The notes under the pieces: model-generated
Databases searched by the model: none
What the model was told of the DNA's origin: nothing
Seen by the model: the letters and a program-made list of their open reading frames with translations, nothing else
NCBI GenBank assembly: GCA_903936705.1
Contig: CAIZWN010000029.1
Location: 1-48,447, forward strand
Source: an uncultured Myxococcales bacterium
GTDB lineage: Bacteria > Myxococcota_A > UBA9042 > DTJE01
Reading direction: 5' to 3'
DNA length: 48,447 nt
Shown here: piece after piece, positions 1 through 17,257 of the stretch
Layout of the letters: the number at the start of each line of letters is the position of its first letter
Position numbering within the stretch: position 1 is the stretch's first letter
Made by a program: the position numbers and the translations under genes

Positions 1-1269
<1,269 letters not shown>

Positions 1270-1423
1270 GACCGGCCGGAAGGCACGGTCCAGGGGTTCT
1301 TAATGAGGTTTCTACTATCCAGTCTTCAACGAGTGAGGCGTAACGCCGAGCTCTTTGGACTCCAGCGTTGCCCGCGGGGCCACTCTGCAGGTCCTTTTAT
1401 CAGGCCTTTTTGGCTTGGTTAAT

Positions 1424-1500
1424 GGGCCTGTAGCTCAGATGGCTAGAGCACGCGCCTGATAAGCGCGGGGTCGACAGTTCGATTCTGTCCAGGCCCACCA
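1424..1500 (+). tRNA. ileT: tRNA-Ile(GAU)
   Basis: This is a 77-nt cloverleaf in the 16S-23S spacer. Acceptor GGGCCUG pairs with CAGGCCC; the D arm is UAGCUCAGAUGG; the anticodon GAU is at 1458-1460 inside CGCCUGAUAAGCG; the T arm is GACAG-UUCGAUU-CUGUC. The terminal CCA is encoded (1498-1500), unlike the neighbouring tRNA-Ala. Isoleucine followed by alanine tRNA is the usual bacterial spacer order. Confidence 0.97.
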
Positions 1501-1535
1501 GTTTCGAGCGGAGGCGCAAGCCTCCTCTTCTTTCT

Positions 1536-1608
1536 GGGGCTGTAGCTCATCTGGGAGAGCGCCGCCTTTGCAAGGCGGATGTGGCCGGTTCGAGTCCGGC
1601 CAGCTCCA
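1536..1608 (+). tRNA. alaT: tRNA-Ala(UGC)
   Basis: This is a 73-nt cloverleaf. Acceptor GGGGCUG pairs with CAGCUCC (one G-U); anticodon stem CCGCC/GGCGG encloses loop UUUGCAA, with anticodon UGC at 1569-1571; the T arm is GCCGG-UUCGAGU-CCGGC. The discriminator A is at 1608 and the next three bases are CTC, so CCA is not encoded and must be added by tRNA nucleotidyltransferase. It lies 35 nt after tRNA-Ile in the same transcript. Confidence 0.96.
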
Positions 1609-1647
1609 CTCCGCAAGCAACACGCGACAACTGTCGTGCTGGCTCGG

Positions 1648-1656
1648 TCTTTGACA
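1648..1656 (+). promoter_or_regulatory. boxA-like antitermination element in the rRNA spacer
   Basis: TCTTTGACA lies in the spacer just ahead of the 23S processing stem, the usual place for the second boxA of rrn operons, and resembles the boxA core CTTTA/GACA. It would load the NusB-S10 antitermination complex. Assignment is by position and similarity only. Confidence 0.4.
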
Positions 1657-1666
1657 AGTGAATCCT

Positions 1667-1685
1667 GTTGATGCAATGACCTTGG
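1667..1685 (+). other. 5' half of the 23S rRNA processing stem
   Basis: The 19 nt beginning GTTGATGCAATG are an exact reverse complement of 4767-4785 downstream of 23S. In the precursor RNA they form a perfect 19-bp helix closing the 23S domain, the expected substrate for RNase III. Shorter complementary stretches continue inward from both sides toward the mature ends. Confidence 0.85.
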
Positions 1686-1716
1686 TCACAACACCTGTAA
1701 TACTGTGAATCGGCGT

Positions 1717-4741
<3,025 letters not shown>

Positions 4742-4766
4742 TACTGATTCACAGCGGGTGTTGCGG

Positions 4767-4785
4767 CCAAGGTCATTGCATCAAC
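4767..4785 (+). other. 3' half of the 23S rRNA processing stem
   Basis: CCAAGGTCATTGCATCAAC is the exact complement of 1667-1685, forming the long RNase III-type helix that brings the two ends of pre-23S together. Confidence 0.85.
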
Positions 4786-4813
4786 AAATGGGTTCCTTGT
4801 CTTAAAAAGACGA

Positions 4814-4935
4814 GGGGCTGGTGACCATACCGGAAGGGCCATACCTGATTCCATCCCGAACTCAGAAGTCAAGCCTTCCAGGGCCGATGGTACTGCGGGG
4901 GAGACCCCGTGGGAGAGTAGGTCGTTGCCGGCCCC
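4814..4935 (+). rRNA. rrf: 5S ribosomal RNA
   Basis: The gene is about 120 nt with helix I GGGGCUGGUG pairing with the 3' segment ending GCCGGCCCC. The conserved CCATCCCGAACTC loop is near 4851-4863 and GGGAGAGTAGG near 4911-4921. It follows 23S by about 70 nt. A 9-bp alternative hairpin (4795-4803 with 4807-4815) touches its 5' end and could assist processing. Ends were set from helix I pairing, so they may be off by 1-3 nt. Confidence 0.94.
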
Positions 4936-6230: not shown

Positions 6231-7379
6231 CTACCCAGGCAACTGTCGTTGCCTGACTCGCAATTCTGCCAGTAACAATTGCCATAGTTGCATAACAGCA
6301 TTCCGGATTCCTGGAATTCCGGGAAGAGGGTAAAGCCCAGGAAACCTGCCTTCGGTCTTGGTTCGGATGGTTGACAATGAGCCCGTTCTAAGAAGATGCA
6401 GCATCTGGCGCAGTCGAAGGGCGTTGCGGTAGTCCGTATCAATCGATCCTGATACGACATGGGCTAGCAGTCGGCCAGTTGCGGACGAAGTTGGTGGTTG
6501 CCTTCCCGAAACCAGGAACTCCACCAGTTCAATGACGGCAATAATCTCACCACGCGATACCGAGTTTCCGACAAATTGAGAGATCTTCATAAATGAATCC
6601 CGGCAATCTGCGACATCGCCCAGCATCCGCATAGGTGGATATCGATCTGCACCGAAGCCATGATCGACAAGTCCGTGAACGATGGCGTGAGCCGCAAGGA
6701 AAGAAGCGGCCGGGACAAAAGAGTCGCCCGGTAGCGAAGGTATCCGTTCAAGAAGGCCGTGGCGCGCCAGGTCTTCAAGAACCACCGATCCAGCGATATC
6801 AGGTACGGTGCACCCGGGGATTTCCAGGTGAATCTCAACCGGGGGATCGCGTCCTTCGGCCAGGGGCTGCAGGTGGTGTTCGGATCGCGACGGCCCGAGC
6901 GGCGAGAATCCAGATGTCATCAGGGTGCGGTGAAAGGCCAAGGCAAGTTGCCGAGGAACCAGCACGTCCACATCGGAGGCTGGCCGGGATGCAACTCCAG
7001 TCCTGTTCGACAGATGCAGCGCAGCCCCCTTCAAGAAAACGATTGGTATGCCGTTCCTGGCAGCAACTTGCGACACGCGATCTGAACTGCGCAGGATTCG
7101 AAGCGCCTGCCGGGCGGCCGCACTTCGATCTGCCAGGGCGGCCTGCAGGCCGGTTGTTCCAAGATCCAGCAAAAGCCTGGAACCTGGAATTCGTGATGCG
7201 ATGCGACCAAGCACGTCAAGCTTGCGCGCCAAGGTAATTGCGTCAGAACTATCCGGGGGAGGCGAATGGCTGGAGTCCGGCGAGGCGTATGCTCGATGCA
7301 GCACCCACGAAAGCTCGGCTGAATGCACCAGGGGTGGTGGGTTGAATCGGCAATCACGCGTCGAAGTGGGTCGCTTCAA
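6231..7379 (-). CDS. nucleotidyltransferase-family protein (NTP_transf_5-like), last gene of the peptide-modification operon
   Basis: The product is a 382-aa protein resembling the uncharacterised nucleotidyltransferase family often found beside PqqD-like and HPrK-like genes in peptide natural-product clusters. Visible motifs are FLKGAALHL (residues 115-123), the metal-binding SDVDVLVP (135-142, Asp136 and Asp138), and VEIHLEI (181-187), a candidate for the third acidic position. Start TTG 7379 has AGGAGGG five bases upstream and overlaps the preceding stop as TTGA. The family's reaction is not established; transfer of a nucleotidyl group to peptide or sugar is a guess. It is the last gene before the convergent phosphoesterase. 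Confidence 0.8.
   Translation of the reverse strand: MKRPTSTRDCRFNPPPLVHSAELSWVLHRAYASPDSSHSPPPDSSDAITLARKLDVLGRIASRIPGSRLLLDLGTTGLQAALADRSAAARQALRILRSSDRVSQVAARNGIPIVFLKGAALHLSNRTGVASRPASDVDVLVPRQLALAFHRTLMTSGFSPLGPSRSEHHLQPLAEGRDPPVEIHLEIPGCTVPDIAGSVVLEDLARHGLLERIPSLPGDSFVPAASFLAAHAIVHGLVDHGFGADRYPPMRMLGDVADCRDSFMKISQFVGNSVSRGEIIAVIELVEFLVSGRQPPTSSATGRLLAHVVSGSIDTDYRNALRLRQMLHLLRTGSLSTIRTKTEGRFPGLYPLPGIPGIRNAVMQLWQLLLAELRVRQRQLPG
6236..6255 (-). terminator. hairpin at the end of the operon (weak terminator candidate)
   Basis: CAGGCAAC and GTTGCCTG form a perfect 8-bp stem with a 4-nt loop, inside the last codons of the nucleotidyltransferase gene and 27 nt past the convergent phosphoesterase stop. 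No U-tract follows on either strand, so intrinsic termination is uncertain. Confidence 0.3.
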
Positions 7380-7870
7380 TGGACCCTCCTGCCTATGACG
7401 CGGCGCAGGTGACTCCGTGCTGTTTCAGGCAGGTGGGCCCATAAGGTGCGCTGCGTCCAGCGCATCACAGGAGCCGTCCTCCTCCCAAAGGCCAGCCAGG
7501 CCCGAAAAGCCGGGTTTTCAGTGCGAATCCATATGCCCATCCAACCGATTCGGGTGACGATTCCGATGATGGAGTCGGCAGGCGTCCTGGGGTCGTCATG
7601 GTTTGCCCAGAGACCTCGTGTAACTATCGAAAAAGGCTCGGCCTGCGATCCTAGCCCGGCCACGACGTGGCAGATCGGAGTGTCTCCAAGACGAACAGCC
7701 ACCAGATCGCCGCATGCCGCCGCGCCAGTTGATGGATCTCGGATCTCGATATCTGCGCCGGGCAGAACGGCCGGAAGAAGGCTGAAACCGGCCAATCGGA
7801 ATCGCCGGCGCCCAGTTGTGGCAGGTTCGTTTCGAATCCGCGATGCCTTGCCGGCGGGGACAGTCATCAT
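7376..7870 (-). CDS. S24/S26-type peptidase-like protein (S26B signal-peptidase pattern)
   Basis: The product is a 164-aa soluble protein with the layout of an archaeal/ER-type (S26B) signal peptidase: GFSLLPAVLPGADIEI places Ser30 where the nucleophile sits, CHVV places His68 where S26B enzymes have the general base, and TRGLWANHDD (84-93) matches the family's TKGDNNxxDD, although the first Asp is Leu. No membrane anchor is visible, unlike true signal peptidases. Similar short proteins occur in lasso-peptide and PqqD-associated clusters, where leader cleavage has been suggested. The start ATG 7870 overlaps the radical SAM stop as ATGA; ATG 7867 is the alternative. It may be a cytosolic leader protease, or may have lost catalysis. 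Confidence 0.72.
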   Translation of the reverse strand: MMTVPAGKASRIRNEPATTGRRRFRLAGFSLLPAVLPGADIEIRDPSTGAAACGDLVAVRLGDTPICHVVAGLGSQAEPFSIVTRGLWANHDDPRTPADSIIGIVTRIGWMGIWIRTENPAFRAWLAFGRRTAPVMRWTQRTLWAHLPETARSHLRRVIGRRVH

Positions 7871-8913
7871 CCGTTCCCCACGTTCCTGGAACGCAACTGG
7901 CCCAACACTCGCGTCCACATCCGGGCGTTTTCGCATGCGGTCGTGTAGGGGGCGGTGGGTCGGCCCGAAAAAATCTCGGATTGACCAGGACAGAAATCGC
8001 ATGTCACCAGATGCTCGCAAACCATACATTCGTCGCGATCGGCATTCTTGATTGCGCGGACGCTGGCCAACTCGGGGGACTCGACGAACGATGCAAGGCC
8101 GCCTGGATCTGCAATGTTTCCAAGAACCTTTGGCCATGCGACACACGGGCTGATATCGCCTTTGGGGGTAACATAGAGTCGGGTATGTCCCGCCGAACAA
8201 GGGGCCGACAATGGCTTTACAGGACGAGGTTCCATTGGTGCGGTGTCGGTGAAATGGCTATGAATCGAGGCCATTCGGGTCTCTTCATCCAGTTCCGTAC
8301 ATCCAGCTGCCTGGCCGTCGCGACGCCTGAGAATCGTACTGGATTCCCTGAACCGGCAGCCGCGTTCCTGCGCCCATCGCAGCAGCATTCCACCGTCCTC
8401 GGGAATTCCCTCGACAAGACTTCGCGTCACCCTCACCGGCACGTTCCGCCCCCGCAGCGATTCAATCGCAGCCGCAGCCCTGTTCCATGAACCCGGGAGA
8501 CCGGTGAACGCGTCGTGAACGTGTGGTTCAATCGAATGCAGGCTGATGTCAACCATGATCCAGCCCAGATCCGCGAACAAATCAACAGTCTGCTCGGTCA
8601 GAAGAATTCCGGTTGTCTTGACCAGAACTGCAAACCCTCGCGATCGGGCGGCTTGCAGAATGTCATTGAAGTCCCTTCTGATCATCGGTTCGCCGCCCGA
8701 CAAGACGACCTGGGCGATCGCCAGTGACTTTGCCTGGTCAAGTACCTTTATCCAAGCCTCCTTCGATAGTTCATCGGCATGACTACCGACAAGATAGCAA
8801 TGTGGACAAGTCAGAGGGCACCGCCAGGTCAGGTCAATGTGAAGAAGGAACAGACGATGACAATCGAGGTACCGGTTCTCCAGGGCACGCAGCACCGTCC
8901 ACATGTCGTTCAT
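7867..8913 (-). CDS. radical SAM/SPASM peptide-modifying enzyme
   Basis: The product is a 348-aa radical SAM protein. The SAM-binding cluster motif CPLTCPHC gives Cys32, Cys36 and Cys39 (CX3CX2C), and LSGGEP lies at 72-77. A complete C-terminal SPASM set follows: Cys239-x17-Cys257, then CX2CX5CX2C (Cys296, 299, 305, 308) and Cys327, enough to hold two auxiliary Fe-S clusters. Such enzymes install thioether, C-C or other crosslinks on ribosomal peptides (PqqE, sactisynthases, MftC). The likely substrate is the Cys-rich peptide encoded two genes upstream, with the separately encoded PqqD-like protein as recognition partner. ATG 8913 overlaps the HPrK-like stop as TAATG. The precise bond formed cannot be read from sequence. 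Confidence 0.9.
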   Translation of the reverse strand: MNDMWTVLRALENRYLDCHRLFLLHIDLTWRCPLTCPHCYLVGSHADELSKEAWIKVLDQAKSLAIAQVVLSGGEPMIRRDFNDILQAARSRGFAVLVKTTGILLTEQTVDLFADLGWIMVDISLHSIEPHVHDAFTGLPGSWNRAAAAIESLRGRNVPVRVTRSLVEGIPEDGGMLLRWAQERGCRFRESSTILRRRDGQAAGCTELDEETRMASIHSHFTDTAPMEPRPVKPLSAPCSAGHTRLYVTPKGDISPCVAWPKVLGNIADPGGLASFVESPELASVRAIKNADRDECMVCEHLVTCDFCPGQSEIFSGRPTAPYTTACENARMWTRVLGQLRSRNVGNG

Positions 8914-9734
8914 TAAAAATCCAGCATCGGCCATGGGGAATGTTCAAGCGGAAGACCAAGACGGGTAACTCCGTGGTTGCGAGCCAGTCGCAAGGATGTG
9001 TCCATCACGCGCTCGCGGATGGAAAAGGCTGCGTCCGTCATGAAAGCGCGAAGTATCAAGCTGGAAAGGGCCTCGGCCGTCGAAAGCCTGGCCGTGAAAG
9101 CCTTTTCACCTTTGACGAGATCAACAATCATTGCAAGCGGAGCCGCAGGTCCCTGAGCCTGGAGCTTTTCGCGTCCGGGAAAAGGCGAAGGCACAACCCA
9201 GGGACCGGCGCGTCCAGGAACAACCAGCGTCATGTCATCCGCCAGCGAGTTTCCAAGGGAGTGTCCCTTGATCAACGTGGTCTTGCCGCCGCCAGACGGG
9301 GACAAGAATATATACGCACCTGACGGCCGGGCGACGGCTGCCGCATGCAGCGCAATGCCTCCAAGTGCCAGCAATGCTTCTGTGACGAAGTGGCGGAAGA
9401 ATTGCTGCAAGCCGTAGGTGGCAATAACCTGAGATTGATTCGTCGCCAGCGTGACCGATACCGAGTCGAGACCGTTTCCCTCTGCGATCCACAGCGGATC
9501 TTGACCCATTCTCCATGCACCCTTGGCCGGGTCCCCTTCTCGGACAAAGCGGCGTTCTGACGTAAGTGTCAGCTTTGATTCATAAAGGCAAAGTCGCGTG
9601 CTAACGTGTGCCTGAAATTCCAAGGGGTCGGCGTGGCGCGCTGGCCATCGTAAGGCAAGACCATCAACTGCCAGTTGCAGCAGATCGGTTGACGCGTTGA
9701 TCCCGAATAGGATCGGGCCGGTCCGAAGCTGCAC
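8913..9734 (-). CDS. HPr-kinase-like (HprK-related) ATP-binding protein
   Basis: The product is a 273-aa protein whose C-terminal half matches the HprK/P kinase core: LHAAAV (His130), Walker A SPSGGGKTT (145-153), and LADDMTL with Asp166/Asp167 where HPr kinase has its VADD motif. It lacks the full HprK N-terminal domain and there is no ptsH nearby, so an HPr regulatory role is unlikely. In paeninodin-type lasso clusters a related kinase phosphorylates the precursor, and that role fits here: the adjacent precursor has several Ser/Thr in its core. GTG 9734 is chosen because it overlaps the precursor stop as TAGTG, with GGAG seven bases upstream; TTG 9755 is an alternative, adding seven residues. 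Confidence 0.82.
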   Translation of the reverse strand: MQLRTGPILFGINASTDLLQLAVDGLALRWPARHADPLEFQAHVSTRLCLYESKLTLTSERRFVREGDPAKGAWRMGQDPLWIAEGNGLDSVSVTLATNQSQVIATYGLQQFFRHFVTEALLALGGIALHAAAVARPSGAYIFLSPSGGGKTTLIKGHSLGNSLADDMTLVVPGRAGPWVVPSPFPGREKLQAQGPAAPLAMIVDLVKGEKAFTARLSTAEALSSLILRAFMTDAAFSIRERVMDTSLRLARNHGVTRLGLPLEHSPWPMLDF

Positions 9735-9907
9735 TACGGTGCTCCGGAGTCGCAACCGCTGCCCTCGTCAATGCATGTTCCGCAAGTACACGATGCGTAC
9801 AGAACGGCCTTGTCAATCGGCTGATTAGTGCGCACCTGAGGCCGGGTGTATGTCTTCCGGTCGGTCTGCTTCGGTTGGAACTCTTCTTCCTTGTCTTGCT
9901 GGTCCAT
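9734..9907 (-). CDS. 57-aa Cys-rich peptide, candidate RiPP precursor
   Basis: This small gene sits in the only gap of the operon. ATG 9907 has GGAGG nine bases upstream and starts 14 nt after the lipoprotein stop; TAG ends at 9734, where the kinase gene starts. The N-terminal half is charged and Cys-free (MDQQDKEEEF...), with Y20-T-R-P23-Q-V25, resembling the YxxPx(L/V) leader element bound by PqqD-like recognition domains in lasso and related RiPPs. The last 18 residues hold all four cysteines: SCTCGTCIDEGSGCDSGAP (Cys40, 42, 45, 52; spacing CxCx2Cx6C). Context (PqqD-like protein, SPASM enzyme, kinase, peptidase) makes it the likely modification substrate. Cleavage site and crosslinks are not determinable. 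Alternative: a small Fe-S or metal-binding protein. Confidence 0.8.
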   Translation of the reverse strand: MDQQDKEEEFQPKQTDRKTYTRPQVRTNQPIDKAVLYASCTCGTCIDEGSGCDSGAP

Positions 9908-9921
9908 GGGTCATTGCCTCC

Positions 9922-12900
9922 CTAGTACAGAATTGTAGCGTACCCGGAACCGTTGGTACCGACCAGGAGGTCCGGGAACCCGTCGTCGTTGAAGTCGCCG
10001 ATCGGGTACGCCCCGAAGTATCCGAACTTCAGCCCGGTCTGGTCAATAGGATCTACAAGAGCCGGCGATCCATATGGCAAAGTACCGTAATCGAAGCTGC
10101 CAGCCGGGTCTTTCAGGTTCCGGCGGATATGAACCTTGCCGTTGACTGCGGACGCTGCCATGACATGGACCAGGTCGACGGAAGGGCCATTCGGGTCGTC
10201 ATCGAAATTCCCGATTGGAATTGCGCGTTCGAAAGAGCCTGCAATGACAAGTCCCCTCTCGTTGCCGAGGATGTCAGTCCCGACTACAGGTGTGGCATTG
10301 ATCTGTACCGTCTGGCCGAATTGCGTTTTCAGGTAACCTCCACGGAAGATGAAGATTGTCTTGTTCTGCGGAAATACGAACGGGGTTGCCGCAGAATGAG
10401 TGACGACGATCTCGGGAGAATTGTCCCCATCGAAGTCGTAGCGCCCCGCAATCGAGGTAGCTCCGAAGTTTAGGGCGGCGTTCGGGGCATCAGGCGCCAG
10501 TCTGATGACCGTCAGGTTGTCGCGTCCGCCCGATGTAACTGCGACAGAGATGTCCGTCAACCCGGTGAGGGCGCGTCCCTTGATCACCAGTACCTGCGAG
10601 GGGACTGCATAGGTGGATACTGCCGCCTCGTCCATTCCGTCGCCGTCGATGTCGCCGACAAAGGCGACGCGTGTTCCAAAGCGAGTTGATGCATCGCCAT
10701 CGGTCATCATCAAGGGGACGATGCCGTGCGCTGTGCGGACGTCCGCGTCCGACAGGTTGATTGCCAGATTGGTCGCCGCCGTCCATGAACTGTTGCCAGG
10801 GACCATGTATACGATGCTATTGGCCTGCGAGCCGACCAGCAGGTCCCCGACGCCATCGCCGTTAAAGTCGCCGCCTCCGGCCGTCGAGACTGCTGCCAAG
10901 GACGACTGGATTCCAGTGAACGTCAGATTCGGCAGTGCCGCCAAACGACCACCTGCAACACCGAACCAAACCTTCATCGTCTGGTTTGGTGTGGTGCCCT
11001 CCCCGACTAGAAGGTCTTCAACCCCGTCATGGTTCAGGTCGCCGCCGCGTTCCACGGGGATGCCAAAGTTGCTGCCAGTTGCTCCCGAGAGGCACTGGTG
11101 GCTTGGACCTGTAGCAGCAGAGATAATCAACGGCGGAATGGTTTTATCCTGGCCAGATGAGTTTCCATAGACGATGCAGAATGTGTTGGCCATCGTGCCA
11201 GTACCGCCGCCGCCCAAAGCAATGTCGCCCCGGCCATCGCCGTCAATGTCGCCAACCCAGGCAACGCGCTTGTTCATCAGGGGATCGTTGAACGGGGCTA
11301 CCGACCCGCTGATGTTTGCATATCGCAATGCGACATCGACGTCCATGAAGCTGGACGCAACAAGCGGAGAAACGTTGCCTACTGCATCTATTGCCCTGAC
11401 TGCGAAGGCGTAGTTGGTTTCGTTGTCATTCGTGCCCGGGATGAACTTGCACGGGGTGCCATTCTCGGTGACGTTCGGATTCCGGACGTCTGGGCCGGTG
11501 ATTGTGATGGACTCGGCCGAACCGGGGGCTGCCGGAACCGGGACCGCGGCCGTGTAGGCAAGCCCTGCAACGCTGCATGCGCGAGCGAACTCGGCATCGC
11601 TGGTTATGGGCAGCGGGGAATAGCGGATGTCATAGCTGGTGGCAGGAACGCCAGTCGTTCCGTTGTCCGCCACGGCAGCCCATCGCAGGGTGACCGCCGG
11701 TCTGCGCCGGTTGAGGTCGGCTGGGGCAAGTGTCTCGAGGGTCGGCGATGCCGGAGGCTGAAGATCGACCTGTGCCGTGAATGAAGACGTAGCGATGTTC
11801 CCGGCCGCGTCGGTAACGCTGATCGAGACCGTGTCATTCGACTGGTCAGGCAGCGTGGCATCGAGGTCCAGCGTGGTCGGAGATACCGACAGGGCATAGG
11901 GCAGCGAAAGATTCGATGTCGGGATCGACTGTGCGCCCATTACCAGGGCATCCATCGTCCCACCCATCAGGTTTATGTCCGTTGCCTGCACTGTAAGTGT
12001 GCGCTGCAGCCCCGGAGTGCCTGGGACTTTGTCCGCCGTAACGCCCCATTTGTTGGCTGATCCTGATGCCGGCGCGGTGAAGCTGACCACCGGATCCTGC
12101 AAGTCAACGATGCGCGTTAGGGCGCCCGACGAACCAGCCGGCGTCGATCCATCGATTGCCTGTGCCTCGAAGCTCGGGGTGGTTCCGTTGTCCACTGTCA
12201 CCGTGAATGTGGCAACCCAATCGACTATCGGCTTGTCCTCGGTGGCCACGATCGTGCCTCCGATTGTCTTGGTCAGACGGGCAGTAGTGGCCGCTGCGCA
12301 GGCGGCCGAAACGTTGACGGTGACCGATATGGAAGCCGTCGGGCAGTTGGTTCCAGGTGTCGGGCAGTGCTGGTTGTTGACGTACTGACCCGAACCAATA
12401 CCGGCAACTCCAACCTGGCAATTGACCAGGTTCAACGTCAGGTTGGCCGAGGCCGATCCCTGGTTGCCCGCGCTATCGGCAACCACGGCGATGACCTTGA
12501 AATACGAAGTTGCAGTCACCGGCAGGGTCGGGAACACCGAGGGCTCAAGTCCGCCCGCATTGGTGATTGCTCCCTGGGCAATCCTGGTCGGCGGGTCGCA
12601 TGTCGTGAAGGTTGCGTCGCAGTTCAATGCCAACTGGATCTGCCAGCCAGAGCCATCCAGACTGTCGGTGCCCAGGGAAACCTCGATCTGGAATCCCGGC
12701 ACCAAAGGCTGTGCGTCGTCCGAGTCGTCCAGGACCAGACCAGAAACGGGCTTGTCGAGAACAACGTTTGGCACGATGGTGTCCACGGTGACCGCCCGCG
12801 TTGCCGATGCCGGATTGCCCGCCTCGTCCGATACGGTGACCTCAAGGGAATGATTGCCGTCCGTGAGGATCGGCATGCTGGTAAACGGGAATTTTGCCGT

Positions 12901-15900
12901 CATCTCGGCATCGACAATAGCGGTCCACTTCTCGATGCCGCCATCCAGAAGAACGACCGTCCGGCCGATGGCGTCCGAATGGACCACGACATCAAGCAAA
13001 TCTCCGGCCCGGACAAAGGCGCCAGCGGGGTCGGCGATCGACAGTGTCGGCGCCAGTGTATCGACAGTGGCATTGTAGTAGACCACCGACTCGGACTGCG
13101 GCAAGGCGCTGTAGTTGCCCACCAGGTCCCTGACCTTCGCGTAGACCTGGTTTTCACCTTCGTAAAGCGTGGTGTTCACCAGGGCGTCGCCTGTAAAGGT
13201 AGTCAGCGTGGAGGCATCCAGCCCGTTGACAACCAGGGTCAATTCGCCTGGCTCGGAGGCAACGATCTTCATAGAGAAGACCCGATCAGCAGCCAACTGT
13301 TCCGCAATATTCAGTACACCCGTGGGTGGCAAAATGTCCGATGGACAAGACAGTTCGGATACAACCGGGGCGACGGTGTCCTGGAAGATGTAGCGGAATT
13401 GTTCCTCTGCCACGGGACTGTCGGCCGAAGAGGGCCATGGCTGTCCCTGGGCAAGGCGGCCTTCGGCAACAAGGGTGTGGGATCCGTCCAGCAGACCGTT
13501 CACCACGACCGACGTGGAAGTCGAGCCGTAGTTGGAAACAAGGGCCACCTGCCTGTATCCCTGCGTGCTGCAGAGGGGGCCGCTCAGTCCAGGGCGGTTG
13601 CTGCAAATACGGAGGTTATCGATCCCGGGGGGGAGTGCCGAAACCGCTACCATCACGTTCCTGGCGGTCTCAATACCCCATGGAGTAGCGCAGAATCCAT
13701 CGGCGCACACGGCACTTGCAGCGCACGGCAACACCGAGGAACATGCGACGCGATTCACGAACGTCGGCGAAACCAGACGGACCACGGGTCTGCTGACGAT
13801 CACGTCTACGAGTCTGGTCAGCGAACCCTGGTTGCCGGCCGAATCGGCCGTCCGGGCGGTCAACGTATACGTACCGTCCAGCAACGTGGCTTGTGGCAAT
13901 GTGATCAACTGTGCGGTTCCATCAGGCACTGCCATGGTTAATGTCGTCTGGACCTGGCCAGGTTCACGGCCTGCAGTTTCGTACACGACGGTAACGACGC
14001 TGCCTAGTTCGAGGCCCGACACGATGACCTTGAAAGTGAATTGCAGACCAGGAACGGCCGGATCCGGGGATTCGTCGAACGAGTAAGTCAGCGAGTCGAT
14101 GGTCGGGTCCGGTTGCTGGAAGGACGCGATCACGGGCGCAATACGATCGACACTTACCGTAATTGGCTGGGCGCTGGCCGACTGGCCGGCCAGGTCCGTT
14201 GCGGCCGCGTCCAATGTGCACGACGACTGATCGGACAGCAATACGTTGTCAAACTTCAGAACGCCTGTCGCGTCGGCTGAGCCGTTGTACACGATTGTTG
14301 AGGTGCCGCACGTGACCGTCAGTTGGCCTGTCGAGTCCTTTTCGAGGTTCTGTCCGTCGACGAGGACGTCGATGATGCAGTCCAGGCTTCCCGGCAAGCA
14401 TGCCGTGGTCAAGAGCGATATGGATTGGTCGCTGGCTGGCACCCTGAAGGTCAACACTGGCAGGCTGTCCTTGAAGCGCAGCACGCGCGGGGCCGAGAAG
14501 CCCTCGTTGCCGCCTACCGTGGCACTGGCTACAAAACTCTGAGGAGTGGTTGTCAGTACGTCAATCGAGATTGTTGCGATGCCATTGGAGTCTGTGGTCA
14601 GCGGGTATTGGGTTGTGCCATCGACCGTAAGCGTGACCGGCAAGTCCGCCTGTGCGACGTCGGCAACGTCGGTGACGCTGATGGCAAGGTCGAAAGGCAG
14701 AACGGCAATGGGGCCGTTCTGAGCCGGGGTGATTATGCGAACCCGCGGTCCGGACAATATCAGTTGAATGGTTCGCGCGACGGTTGCCCCGACGTTCCCG
14801 CCGGTGTCGGTTGCCTGGGCAGACACTTCGTTATTTCCGGGGATCAGGGTGACGCCAGGGAAGGTCGCAACCGATGCGTCTGGCGCCATGGTCTGGCATG
14901 AGCGGTCACCGTTCACGGTAAGGCACACGATTGTTCCCGGGCCGCCGCCGGAAAGAACCGTGACTTCAATCGTGGTCTGGTAGCCAGGAGCGGTTGCGTC
15001 CTGGTCTGCTTCCAATGGGTTCCCGCCCGCAGGGTCCAGCGTGCCGGTCCCGGGCGAGGTGATGACCACTTCCGGTGCAGCCGTGTCCAGCGTAAAGGTT
15101 GTTCTGGTAACGCTGGCCGGATTGTCGGAAGCCAGGTTCCCGAACACGTCAACAGCATCAGTGTAGAGGGTCCAAACGCCATCAGGCAGGGGTTGTCCGC
15201 CGACCAGCAGCGGCAACGTAAAGACCAGACCGTCGTTCCGTATGGGGCTTGCGGGCGTGAACAACAATACCTCCAGGCCCCCCTGGTCCAGAATACCAAT
15301 AGTCGGCACGACGTCGTTCAGGCTGGAAGTACTCAGAACCACAGGAATACTTGTGCTGTTGACAAAGGATCCTTCGGCCGGCCTAAGAATGTCCATGACC
15401 GGGGCAGGAAGGCCGACCGTGAATGCGACCTCGCTGGAACGGGAAGGGTTGGCAGCATCGTCGATGACCTGGCAAATCAGCGATGTATTCCTGGTCTGTA
15501 CCGAAAGGGAAATAGGCACAGTGTACTGCCCGTCCACCGAGGGGGTATCAACCAACAGAGAACCGACGTTTACGAAGGGCGTGCCAAAGCGGCCCTCGCG
15601 ACAGCGGACGGTCATTGTTGTTCCGGAGGTAAGTCCTTCATTGACGATCACGGCCGTCGTCTCGTAGATCATGGGAGTCGAAGGGTTTCCGTCATTCTTG
15701 GCCAGCAGGACTTCGCCTGCCATCGGCGAGACCAGAACGATTGTTGCCGTGGTTACGAGGGCCGTGAACTCGCGCTCGACGGTGCCAATGCGGCCACATG
15801 AATCCGACGCCTTTGCCACCAGTTTGTAGACGCCATCGATGGTGATGCCGAGGTCGTTTACTTGCCACTGGCCGCTGATTGCGTCCGGTTGCGGCGTGCC

Positions 15901-16965
15901 TGCGACTTCCGACCTGAAACTGACCTCCACTGGTTCGCCCGCCTTCGCGCCGGTGACGGTTCCGGATGTGTTGAACGTCAGGCCGTTCGATGGATCTGCA
16001 TCATTGTCGTCCTTCAGGGTCAGGACGGCCTTGGACGGTTGGTCGATGGTCAACACCGGGTCAACCAGGTCTAGTACGAACGGGAGATCCGCCGTAGAAG
16101 CAGCGCGGCTGGGTGATGCCGTGTCCGAGACCTCGGCCGACACCTGGACCGTCACGCCGTCCACCCCGTCGGTGTGATCCAGCAAGGTCACGCGAATCTT
16201 GGTCGATCCTGTAGAGGCAAGTGATGACGGATCGCTGAATATGGAGTTCCCGTCGGACGTTACCTTGATTCGTGCCGTCGTGCATGTGCGTTCAGGGTTG
16301 GATACGATGAAATCCACCTGAAAGCCTGGGGTGGTCGGGTCAACGTCGGCCAGCAGGCAGGACGTGTTCGTTGGCAACAAGACAATGCCGCAACTTCCGA
16401 TATCGACCTTGGCGATCTTGGTAACCTCGCCGCTGGCCTGCTGCAGGTTGGTAGCCTCGGCCTTCACTTCATAGCCGGTGGTGTTGTTGGTCATTACGAT
16501 GTTCGTGAATTCTGCCGTTCCGATACCTGAGGTTTCATTGACCACAACATTTACGGTCGATACGAGGTTGCCCGCCACGAACAGGCGGACGGCTGCGCCG
16601 TTCTCCAGGTTCTTTGAGGTGATCGTGATATCCATCTGGAACCCGGGGCTGTCCAGGTAGGCGGTTGGTTCGTCTTCCTTGAACAGGCTTACTTCGGCCG
16701 TGTCCGCGCCCTTTGGACCTGACGCCGTGTTGAACACCATCGTTAATTCGGGCGTCAGTGGGACATCGGTGGCGTCGTCGGGCGTCAAATCGGCGTCTGA
16801 AACAGTGTCAACATCCGGAAAATCTGGGGAATCGACCGTATCGACGTCGAGAGTGTCATCAACTGGAGTGAGGTCGGAGGCCGAGTTGCCGATTGTTCCG
16901 CCGGCACAGGCGCCGCCTGAAAGAATCAGAACTACAAACAATAATTCCAATGACTTACGATTCAC
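9922..16965 (-). CDS. giant Ig-like repeat / FG-GAP surface lipoprotein (2347 aa)
   Basis: The signal segment ends in LSGGAC, a degenerate lipobox with Cys20 as possible lipidation site. A linker rich in Asp, Thr, Val and Pro (about residues 30-70) follows. Residues 75-1735 are a long series of roughly 90-130-residue Ig-like domains recognisable by recurring joints such as DTAAPEVVITSP, DRIAPVIAS and VDTIVPNVVL. Next is a fibronectin-III-like stretch (about 1735-1877), then FG-GAP/integrin-alpha repeats (about 1880-2347) with calcium-binding loops DIDGDGRGD, DLNHDGVED, DFNGDGVGD, DIDGDGMDE and DFNDDGFPD, probably a beta-propeller. It should be an outer-surface adhesion or binding protein. GTG 16965 overlaps the PqqD-like gene by 11 nt, with GGAGG six bases upstream. 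Why it belongs to a peptide-modification operon is unknown. Confidence 0.9.
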   Translation of the reverse strand: MNRKSLELLFVVLILSGGACAGGTIGNSASDLTPVDDTLDVDTVDSPDFPDVDTVSDADLTPDDATDVPLTPELTMVFNTASGPKGADTAEVSLFKEDEPTAYLDSPGFQMDITITSKNLENGAAVRLFVAGNLVSTVNVVVNETSGIGTAEFTNIVMTNNTTGYEVKAEATNLQQASGEVTKIAKVDIGSCGIVLLPTNTSCLLADVDPTTPGFQVDFIVSNPERTCTTARIKVTSDGNSIFSDPSSLASTGSTKIRVTLLDHTDGVDGVTVQVSAEVSDTASPSRAASTADLPFVLDLVDPVLTIDQPSKAVLTLKDDNDADPSNGLTFNTSGTVTGAKAGEPVEVSFRSEVAGTPQPDAISGQWQVNDLGITIDGVYKLVAKASDSCGRIGTVEREFTALVTTATIVLVSPMAGEVLLAKNDGNPSTPMIYETTAVIVNEGLTSGTTMTVRCREGRFGTPFVNVGSLLVDTPSVDGQYTVPISLSVQTRNTSLICQVIDDAANPSRSSEVAFTVGLPAPVMDILRPAEGSFVNSTSIPVVLSTSSLNDVVPTIGILDQGGLEVLLFTPASPIRNDGLVFTLPLLVGGQPLPDGVWTLYTDAVDVFGNLASDNPASVTRTTFTLDTAAPEVVITSPGTGTLDPAGGNPLEADQDATAPGYQTTIEVTVLSGGGPGTIVCLTVNGDRSCQTMAPDASVATFPGVTLIPGNNEVSAQATDTGGNVGATVARTIQLILSGPRVRIITPAQNGPIAVLPFDLAISVTDVADVAQADLPVTLTVDGTTQYPLTTDSNGIATISIDVLTTTPQSFVASATVGGNEGFSAPRVLRFKDSLPVLTFRVPASDQSISLLTTACLPGSLDCIIDVLVDGQNLEKDSTGQLTVTCGTSTIVYNGSADATGVLKFDNVLLSDQSSCTLDAAATDLAGQSASAQPITVSVDRIAPVIASFQQPDPTIDSLTYSFDESPDPAVPGLQFTFKVIVSGLELGSVVTVVYETAGREPGQVQTTLTMAVPDGTAQLITLPQATLLDGTYTLTARTADSAGNQGSLTRLVDVIVSRPVVRLVSPTFVNRVACSSVLPCAASAVCADGFCATPWGIETARNVMVAVSALPPGIDNLRICSNRPGLSGPLCSTQGYRQVALVSNYGSTSTSVVVNGLLDGSHTLVAEGRLAQGQPWPSSADSPVAEEQFRYIFQDTVAPVVSELSCPSDILPPTGVLNIAEQLAADRVFSMKIVASEPGELTLVVNGLDASTLTTFTGDALVNTTLYEGENQVYAKVRDLVGNYSALPQSESVVYYNATVDTLAPTLSIADPAGAFVRAGDLLDVVVHSDAIGRTVVLLDGGIEKWTAIVDAEMTAKFPFTSMPILTDGNHSLEVTVSDEAGNPASATRAVTVDTIVPNVVLDKPVSGLVLDDSDDAQPLVPGFQIEVSLGTDSLDGSGWQIQLALNCDATFTTCDPPTRIAQGAITNAGGLEPSVFPTLPVTATSYFKVIAVVADSAGNQGSASANLTLNLVNCQVGVAGIGSGQYVNNQHCPTPGTNCPTASISVTVNVSAACAAATTARLTKTIGGTIVATEDKPIVDWVATFTVTVDNGTTPSFEAQAIDGSTPAGSSGALTRIVDLQDPVVSFTAPASGSANKWGVTADKVPGTPGLQRTLTVQATDINLMGGTMDALVMGAQSIPTSNLSLPYALSVSPTTLDLDATLPDQSNDTVSISVTDAAGNIATSSFTAQVDLQPPASPTLETLAPADLNRRRPAVTLRWAAVADNGTTGVPATSYDIRYSPLPITSDAEFARACSVAGLAYTAAVPVPAAPGSAESITITGPDVRNPNVTENGTPCKFIPGTNDNETNYAFAVRAIDAVGNVSPLVASSFMDVDVALRYANISGSVAPFNDPLMNKRVAWVGDIDGDGRGDIALGGGGTGTMANTFCIVYGNSSGQDKTIPPLIISAATGPSHQCLSGATGSNFGIPVERGGDLNHDGVEDLLVGEGTTPNQTMKVWFGVAGGRLAALPNLTFTGIQSSLAAVSTAGGGDFNGDGVGDLLVGSQANSIVYMVPGNSSWTAATNLAINLSDADVRTAHGIVPLMMTDGDASTRFGTRVAFVGDIDGDGMDEAAVSTYAVPSQVLVIKGRALTGLTDISVAVTSGGRDNLTVIRLAPDAPNAALNFGATSIAGRYDFDGDNSPEIVVTHSAATPFVFPQNKTIFIFRGGYLKTQFGQTVQINATPVVGTDILGNERGLVIAGSFERAIPIGNFDDDPNGPSVDLVHVMAASAVNGKVHIRRNLKDPAGSFDYGTLPYGSPALVDPIDQTGLKFGYFGAYPIGDFNDDGFPDLLVGTNGSGYATILY

Positions 16966-17257
16966 TTTTGTCCTCCAGGACTATTCTCTCGAGAACTTCC
17001 CGTGACAGCAGGTCATCCAGGAAGGTTCCTACATCGGAAGGTACGTCCAGGTCTTTAGTGTCGAACTCCTTGCCAACGGCGGTCACGATCTCGTCCAGCG
17101 ACCTAGGGGGGGCATCCTTCAGATATCCAAGGATAAAGCCTCCAACCGGGTCCGAAACGGTGTGAAAGGCGCTGTCGGCCGACAGCAGAAAATGCTGTTC
17201 GTCCAAAGACCTATAGACGACATCCTTCCGAAAACGGAAAAGTGGATGATATTCCAT
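16955..17257 (-). CDS. PqqD-like peptide chaperone / RiPP recognition element
   Basis: The product is a 100-aa standalone PqqD-family protein. The pattern is typical: an N-terminal strand region (FRFRKDVVYRSL...FLLSADSAFHTVSDP) followed by helices with SLDEIVTAVGKEFD and DVGTFLDDLLSREVLE, the winged-helix fold that holds precursor leader peptides and hands them to radical SAM enzymes. It is the first gene of the operon, and its partner enzyme lacks a fused recognition domain. ATG 17257 is preferred over TTG 17293, because the TTG lies inside the predicted -35 box and the spacing from the -10 box puts the transcript start at this ATG, giving a leaderless or nearly leaderless mRNA. Confidence 0.88.
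   Translation of the reverse strand: MEYHPLFRFRKDVVYRSLDEQHFLLSADSAFHTVSDPVGGFILGYLKDAPPRSLDEIVTAVGKEFDTKDLDVPSDVGTFLDDLLSREVLERIVLEDKSES

Follow-up and report, generated by a model that had tools for sequence, protein, structure and literature searches.

In the PQQ pathway (PqqA/PqqD/PqqE), a small peptide is combined with PqqD, which is an RRE, and with PqqE, a radical SAM enzyme of the SPASM type. SynChlorMet and HPr-rel-A cassettes combine HprK-like proteins with radical SAM enzymes. SkfA/SkfB is a sactipeptide system, and 6efn is the structure of SkfB.

Linear polyphosphorylated peptides (LPP) have been described from Bacillota (Popov et al., May 2026; PMC13381572). According to the part of that report available, their precursors carry the leader motif YxxPxVLxHQxIxFETxxS and are processed by a toolkit consisting of a discrete RRE (LppB, in which N33 is important for leader binding), an HprK-like kinase that phosphorylates Ser3 of the core, a leader peptidase of the archaeal signal peptidase I (SpI) type (LppS, with catalytic S29, H68 and D93) and an NTP transferase. 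The core studied there has 45 residues, and Ser3 lies at +18 from the Tyr when counted along the published motif. The same text calls LPPs restricted to Bacillota, with a patchy phyletic pattern and an unknown role. Kinase-tailored lasso peptides are a second group marked by phosphorylation: the available part of a review (PMC9266682) describes paeninodin-like peptides with the kinases PadeK and PsmK, and PsmN, which is credited with adding a sugar.

The window (the whole stretch of 48,447 nucleotides that was analysed) holds a small gene which is conserved at one position throughout its class of uncultured Myxococcota, together with genes for an RRE, an HprK-like kinase, a SPASM enzyme and a SpI-like protease. 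Quite probably this ORF encodes the precursor of a new, LPP-like RiPP variant that contains a radical SAM enzyme, the individual steps being read by analogy with LPP.

The putative precursor gene

The candidate RiPP precursor, MDQQDKEEEFQPKQTDRKTYTRPQVRTNQPIDKAVLYASCTCGTCIDEGSGCDSGAP, has 57 aa and is read on the minus strand from 9907 to 9734 (9734..9907 including the stop); it is annotated as peptide A from its ORF and its class-wide conservation. All coordinates given below for the operon refer to this strand, which the original prediction did not state. That prediction had claimed a 57-aa ORF with a strong GGAGG site and with a stop codon overlapping the next start, lying in the only uncovered gap of the operon, and each of these points is borne out. 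The ribosome-binding site (9917..9921) stands 9 nt ahead of the ATG at 9907; the stop codon TAG (9736-9734) forms the overlap TAGTG with a GTG at 9734, where the HprK-like gene probably starts; and the ORF, whose ATG is separated by 14 nt from the stop of the preceding giant gene, occupies the sole gap between neighbouring genes. Promoter and terminator scans gave matches at chance level only.

The translation also agrees with what had been said of the peptide itself. The leader is free of Cys, highly charged and includes the recognition motif YTRPQV (residues 20-25, 9833..9850), which takes the form [YWF]xx[P/A]x[VILM] in 40/40 class precursors, and the four Cys (Cys40, 42, 45 and 52) all fall within the last 18 residues. 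Ser39 (9791..9793), at offset +19 from Tyr20, is the putative phosphorylation site, since Ser or Thr stands at +18 or +19 in 40/40 precursors. From the class alignment, the variable Cys-containing core would comprise residues 37-57 (9737..9799).

The operon and its enzymes

Seven genes, overlapping or nearly touching, make up the operon in the order PqqD/RRE, giant lipoprotein, peptide, HprK-like kinase, radical SAM/SPASM enzyme, SpI-like protease and NTP_transf_5 protein. The overlaps measure 11 nt (PqqD/giant), 22 nt (kinase/radical SAM), 4 nt (radical SAM/SpI) and 4 nt (SpI/NTP).

The first gene (16955..17257) encodes a PqqD-like discrete RRE of 100 aa, which matches PF05402 with 24.5 bits against a Pfam cut-off of 23.4. 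It lies directly upstream of the giant gene in 28 class loci, the window among them; most other loci hold too little sequence upstream of the giant to judge its presence, and no PqqD was found in the stretch upstream of the giant that was read in G015 and G027. A second PqqD-like match (L087, G000:C8:95253-95408; E 2.5e-6) occurs elsewhere in the genome of the window, and matches of this kind, at the same model positions, are also present in two genomes of the same genus. The original prediction saw a PqqD-like protein and a SPASM enzyme as direct neighbours; they do belong to the same operon and are conserved with it, but the giant, peptide and kinase genes stand between them.

The second gene (9922..16965) encodes, according to its domain matches, a giant lipoprotein of 2347 aa with Big/Ig-like domains and C-terminal FG-GAP repeats. 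Its counterparts in relatives mostly begin with lipoprotein-like signals and have ORFs of about 2300-2550 codons. After the precursor gene follows the HprK-like kinase (8913..9734; 273 aa), which is identified by its catalytic residues (His in 39/39, P-loop Lys in 39/39 and Asp in 35/39 aligned rows, a few of them from loci outside the class) and by an AlphaFold2 model with a mean pLDDT of 90, for which the Foldseek matches are PEPCK and HPr kinase structures.

The radical SAM/SPASM enzyme (7867..8934; 355 aa) was recognised from domain matches and alignment. C39, C43 and C46, together with six further Cys, are invariant over 12 rows, and its nearest solved structures are SkfB (6efn, E=1.1e-17) and PqqE.

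The SpI-like protease of archaeal type (7376..7870; 164 aa, Ser30/His68/Asp93) owes its assignment to the alignment, in which the catalytic Ser is kept in 31/33, the His in 33/33 and the Asp in 30/33 rows, and to its family, in which 13 of 17 proteins give a match to archaeal signal peptidase I (1.2e-10 for the best). The window member itself matched no model at E up to 0.1. Its structural model has a pLDDT of 75 and gives weak Foldseek matches (one at E up to 0.001), headed by LexA C-domain, repressor and signal-peptidase folds, and the protein contains no hydrophobic stretch of transmembrane strength.

The last gene (6231..7379) encodes an NTP_transf_5 nucleotidyltransferase of 382 aa (PF14907, E=6.2e-15), which is found next to the SpI gene in five class loci only (the window, G001, G002, G005 and G011), part of one family. 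In other families of the class, the SpI gene is followed by a conserved TPR gene and then by a gene for a LysM protein (L126:10555-14684, L116:11004-12907), with an FHA gene in L126; FHA domains bind phosphothreonine. These genes hint at an envelope setting. An rRNA operon with tRNA-Ile and tRNA-Ala (1-4933) is also close by, a single gene separating it from the RiPP operon.

Conservation across the class

From a search of 89 genomes for the kinase, 40 regions were retrieved, which make 41 loci together with the window. In contig scans the kinase alone returned no relative and the radical SAM alignment did find relatives. The giant and kinase genes are syntenic in 32/41 loci (L056, L062, L063, L067, L069, L071, L077, L084 and L085 were dropped from this set), and all 32 gaps encode a peptide that is 44-64 aa long and carries [YWF]xx[P/A]x[VILM], the motif Pro being replaced by Ala in G020. 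In many relatives the start codon was picked by eye at an internal ATG, and coding was verified from residue 2 to the stop. When the peptide alone served as tblastn query, many of the matches were due to chance, and only those beside a kinase or giant gene were kept; L084 and L085, found in this way in G014 and G017:C47, were rejected because they lie away from the locus.

A profile was built from the 32 peptides and searched in 52 class genomes. It matched 41/52 at E up to 0.01, and 40 remain once the out-of-context match in G012 is set aside; this match and a second one in G028 are weak (E above 1e-3), out of context and uncounted. Nine of the 40 loci were absent from the model, and all nine peptides adjoin the end of the giant gene, seven of them also standing before kinase, radical SAM and SpI genes and two lying at contig ends. 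L079 (G058), from outside the class, is among the 32 peptides and was left out of the 40 aligned precursors.

Twelve class genomes have no genuine profile match, and three of these contain the giant gene. One of the three, G043, has a 65-aa peptide in place, which was found by eye after the profile had missed it and is excluded from the motif counts over 40 precursors; the contigs of G030 and G049 break off within the giant gene. For the remaining 9/52 class genomes the search for the giant found none, and G006 and G012 among them have a distant kinase relative only. The peptide (44-65 aa) is thus present at the same position in 41/52 class genomes. A missing or broken ORF in relatives had been named as the finding that would count against the prediction; in 41/43 giant-bearing class genomes the ORF is open and contains the leader motif, and the contigs of the other two end before that point. 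This conservation of motif and position supports the interpretation as a RiPP precursor. In a sample of 329 genomes of the phylum, the profile finds 58 with E no higher than 1e-4; 39 of these belong to the class and 19 do not, and among the latter the context was read for G058 only.

ORFs with a strict motif (40-140 aa, [YWF]xxPx[VILM] and then Cys) occur on the sense strand of 38/41 homologous stretches and on the antisense strand of 2/41, and dinucleotide shuffles lead to an expectation of 0.7 of 41. The closest pair of peptides, L049/L050, differs with a dN of 0.06 and a dS of 0.48; judged by this dN/dS, the precursor is under purifying selection. In the other eight pairs pN is also lower than pS, but the peptide is mostly fast-changing and several dS values are near saturation. 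The distances of the radical SAM enzyme, the kinase and the C-terminus of the giant correlate with each other over 30 loci (Spearman 0.52-0.60, reached in 0/999 permutations), as co-inheritance would give, these being distances and not trees.

Anatomy of the predicted precursors

The 40 class precursors share a leader of fixed spacing. Counted from the motif aromatic residue (position 0, 40/40), they have Lys or Arg at -3 (37/40), Pro at +3 (39/40), Val, Ile, Leu or Met at +5 (40/40), Ser or Thr at +7 (39/40) and Leu at +16 (36/40). The Ser/Thr at +18 or +19 stands at +18 in 32/40, against an overall Ser/Thr frequency of 16%. Beyond +19 the sequence is variable and 7-21 residues long.

At least one Cys occurs beyond +16 in every precursor (one in 12, two in 16, three in 9 and four in 3), and a Cys earlier than this region in 2/40. 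The CxCx2Cx6C core of the original prediction is present in the window, but it is species-specific: within the genus only C42 and C52 align, and the pattern of four Cys is limited to the species of the window. None of 32 precursors matches any Pfam model above cut-off, and none of five tested against NCBIfam (the window and four relatives) matches a model.

Related gene sets in other phyla

Four loci from Acidobacteriota/Aminicenantes MAGs (L155, L158, L160 and L163) have matches to the kinase, radical SAM, PqqD and SpI HMMs, together with a small Cys-rich peptide that starts with MKKEWQTPELIVLFKGRPEETLLCHCK or alike and has a WxxPEL leader; in L158 the kinase match lies in an ORF where Pfam detects only a radical SAM domain. 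In a MAG labelled Burkholderiales (L118:7304-10101) the order is peptide (KKPYVKPAFRHERVFETMALACGK...), SpI-like, kinase, PqqD and radical SAM, and the giant gene was not detected. A Coatesbacteria MAG (L146:8117-8653) contains two similar Yx-K-P-x-V peptides between kinase and PqqD/radical SAM genes. From such partial toolkits in single MAGs of other phyla, the wider peptide family may be large.

Comparison with LPP

The original prediction had left the HprK-like kinase, the SpI-like peptidase, the NTP transferase and the giant lipoprotein unnamed, and its RiPP type has to be refined on this point, because these genes indicate the LPP pathway rather than a generic SPASM RiPP. Compared with the available text on LPP (PMC13381572), the window has the YxxPxV leader (YTRPQV), kept in the relaxed form given above by 40/40 class precursors, a discrete RRE, an HprK-like kinase with its catalytic His, Lys and Asp, a SpI-like peptidase (S30/H68/D93 against S29/H68/D93 in LppS) and an NTP transferase (PF14907). 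Among solved structures, LppB itself (9x8z_B, E=0.0027) matches the window RRE best. Counted along the alignment, LppB D70 and F74 correspond to D103 and F107 of P0008, the window RRE, so that the Tyr-binding Asp is kept (D70 to D103); LppB N33 is replaced by Asp64 in the window and varies across the class.

Other features differ from those described in the same text. The full motif YxxPxVLxHQxIxFETxxS is not found, the window peptide having neither HQ nor FET at the respective places and its Ser at +19, and none of the seven operon genes codes for an MsbA-like transporter. The locus here includes genes for a radical SAM/SPASM enzyme and for a giant lipoprotein. The segment past +19 has 7-21 residues with Cys in 40/40, against a core of 45 residues in LPP, and class-wide inheritance in Myxococcota stands against a patchy pattern in Bacillota. 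The locus is therefore considered an LPP-like variant and not LPP: the full leader motif and the in-cluster transporter fail, and two genes are added.

Several observations weigh against even this LPP-like reading: the Asp that replaces LppB N33, the window Ser at +19 instead of +18, an operon without transporter, the two loci without PqqD (G015, G027) and an NTP transferase limited to few loci. Besides, related peptides outside the class (e.g. L118) have Cys at +18, so the Ser match to LPP may not carry over.

The peptide could also be an LPP-type phosphopeptide precursor on which the SPASM enzyme does not act, this enzyme having another substrate, e.g. the giant lipoprotein, and leaving the Cys without cross-links of its making. 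LPP has a similar leader, kinase, SpI, RRE and NTP transferase, and the available text mentions no radical SAM enzyme (PMC13381572); moreover, the Cys pattern varies, with a single core Cys in 12/40. On the other hand, the radical SAM and SpI genes directly follow the pair of peptide and kinase in nearly every locus, at least one core Cys occurs in 40/40, and the peptide maturases SkfB and PqqE are the nearest to the radical SAM enzyme. We regard this explanation as rather unlikely, and the reading in which the SPASM enzyme belongs to the LPP-like pathway is preferred.

Comparison with other known systems

With paeninodin-like lasso peptides, as the available part of the review describes them (PMC9266682), the locus shares an HprK-like kinase with a His-Lys-Asp-Asp motif, an NTP_transf_5-type gene, an RRE and a [Y/W]xxP leader. 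Unlike those systems, its seven operon genes include neither a lasso cyclase nor a B2 protease, and the phosphorylated Ser is C-terminal in the lasso peptides (PMC9266682).

SkfB is the nearest solved structure of the window radical SAM enzyme, but the SkfB family model stays far below cut-off and the accessory enzymes differ. This proximity, together with the Cys-rich core in the window species, would suit an antimicrobial bacteriocin with sactipeptide- or ranthipeptide-like thioethers, to which the kinase and the peptidase would be accessory. Such a product is improbable, given that no sactipeptide maturase model reaches its cut-off, that cores with one Cys are common, that the operon has neither exporter nor immunity gene and that conservation of a single locus throughout the class is unlike the patchy occurrence of bacteriocins.

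The small peptide, the PqqD-like RRE and the PqqE-like SPASM enzyme recall PQQ, and with a vertically inherited single copy per genome they could speak for a product like PQQ or mycofactocin, a redox cofactor formed out of one fixed pair of core residues. However, the window adds a kinase, a SpI peptidase, a giant lipoprotein and a variable core; the core varies in sequence and length, with only a Cys and a Ser/Thr common to all; and the PqqE and mycofactocin models lie far below cut-off (PqqE 101.8 bits against 381.35; PqqD 17.8 against 46). To our knowledge kinase and SpI are foreign to both pathways, and we give a cofactor precursor very little credence.

As for SynChlorMet and HPr-rel-A cassettes, the kinase gives weak matches to ScmC (1.5e-4) and HprK_rel_A (0.02) and the radical SAM enzyme one to ScmE, but all are far below the curated cut-offs (ScmC 21.2/125 bits, HprK_rel_A 14/200 bits). 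By the sequence features tested, the locus is none of lasso, PQQ, SynChlorMet or HPr-rel-A.

Finally, the TAGTG overlap with the kinase gene might be taken for the sign of an unmodified small protein, e.g. a leader serving translational coupling or a regulator of the kinase, which is most improbable given a leader motif fixed in spacing in 40/40 while the tail varies, an RRE conserved in the operon (28 class loci) and purifying selection on the peptide.

Proposed pathway and significance

In the LPP-like pathway proposed here, the PqqD-like protein would grip the YxxPxV leader and the kinase would phosphorylate the conserved Ser/Thr at +18/+19, i.e. Ser39 in the window. The SpI-like peptidase, a protein without transmembrane stretch, would cut the leader from the short core, and the NTP transferase would add a nucleotide or a sugar to the phosphate. 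By analogy with LPP, we infer in particular the phosphorylation of Ser39 and the cleavage by the SpI-like enzyme. The SPASM enzyme might join a core Cys to another residue as a thioether, which is the most speculative of these steps, a guess made because Cys is present in every precursor.

The likely site of action of the product is the cell surface, where it would work with the giant lipoprotein that is encoded between RRE and precursor. More tentatively, and as a picture that we hold to be possible without favouring it, the locus would encode a vertically inherited RiPP close to the core genome, in which a radical-SAM cross-link is combined with a phosphate (or with a sugar or nucleotide linked through phosphate) and which serves as a surface component or ligand with the giant lipoprotein; this would be a new RiPP class with an envelope and not an antimicrobial role. 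No prior report of this gene combination was recognised in the literature by title and abstract, a coverage that leaves subscription papers mostly outside.

An LPP-like toolkit joined by a SPASM enzyme is thus spread through a class of Myxococcota beside a giant lipoprotein gene. The locus adds radical chemistry to the kinase-marked RiPPs and supplies 41 precursor sequences from the class, and the giant lipoprotein is a concrete candidate partner in the role of LPP-like peptides.
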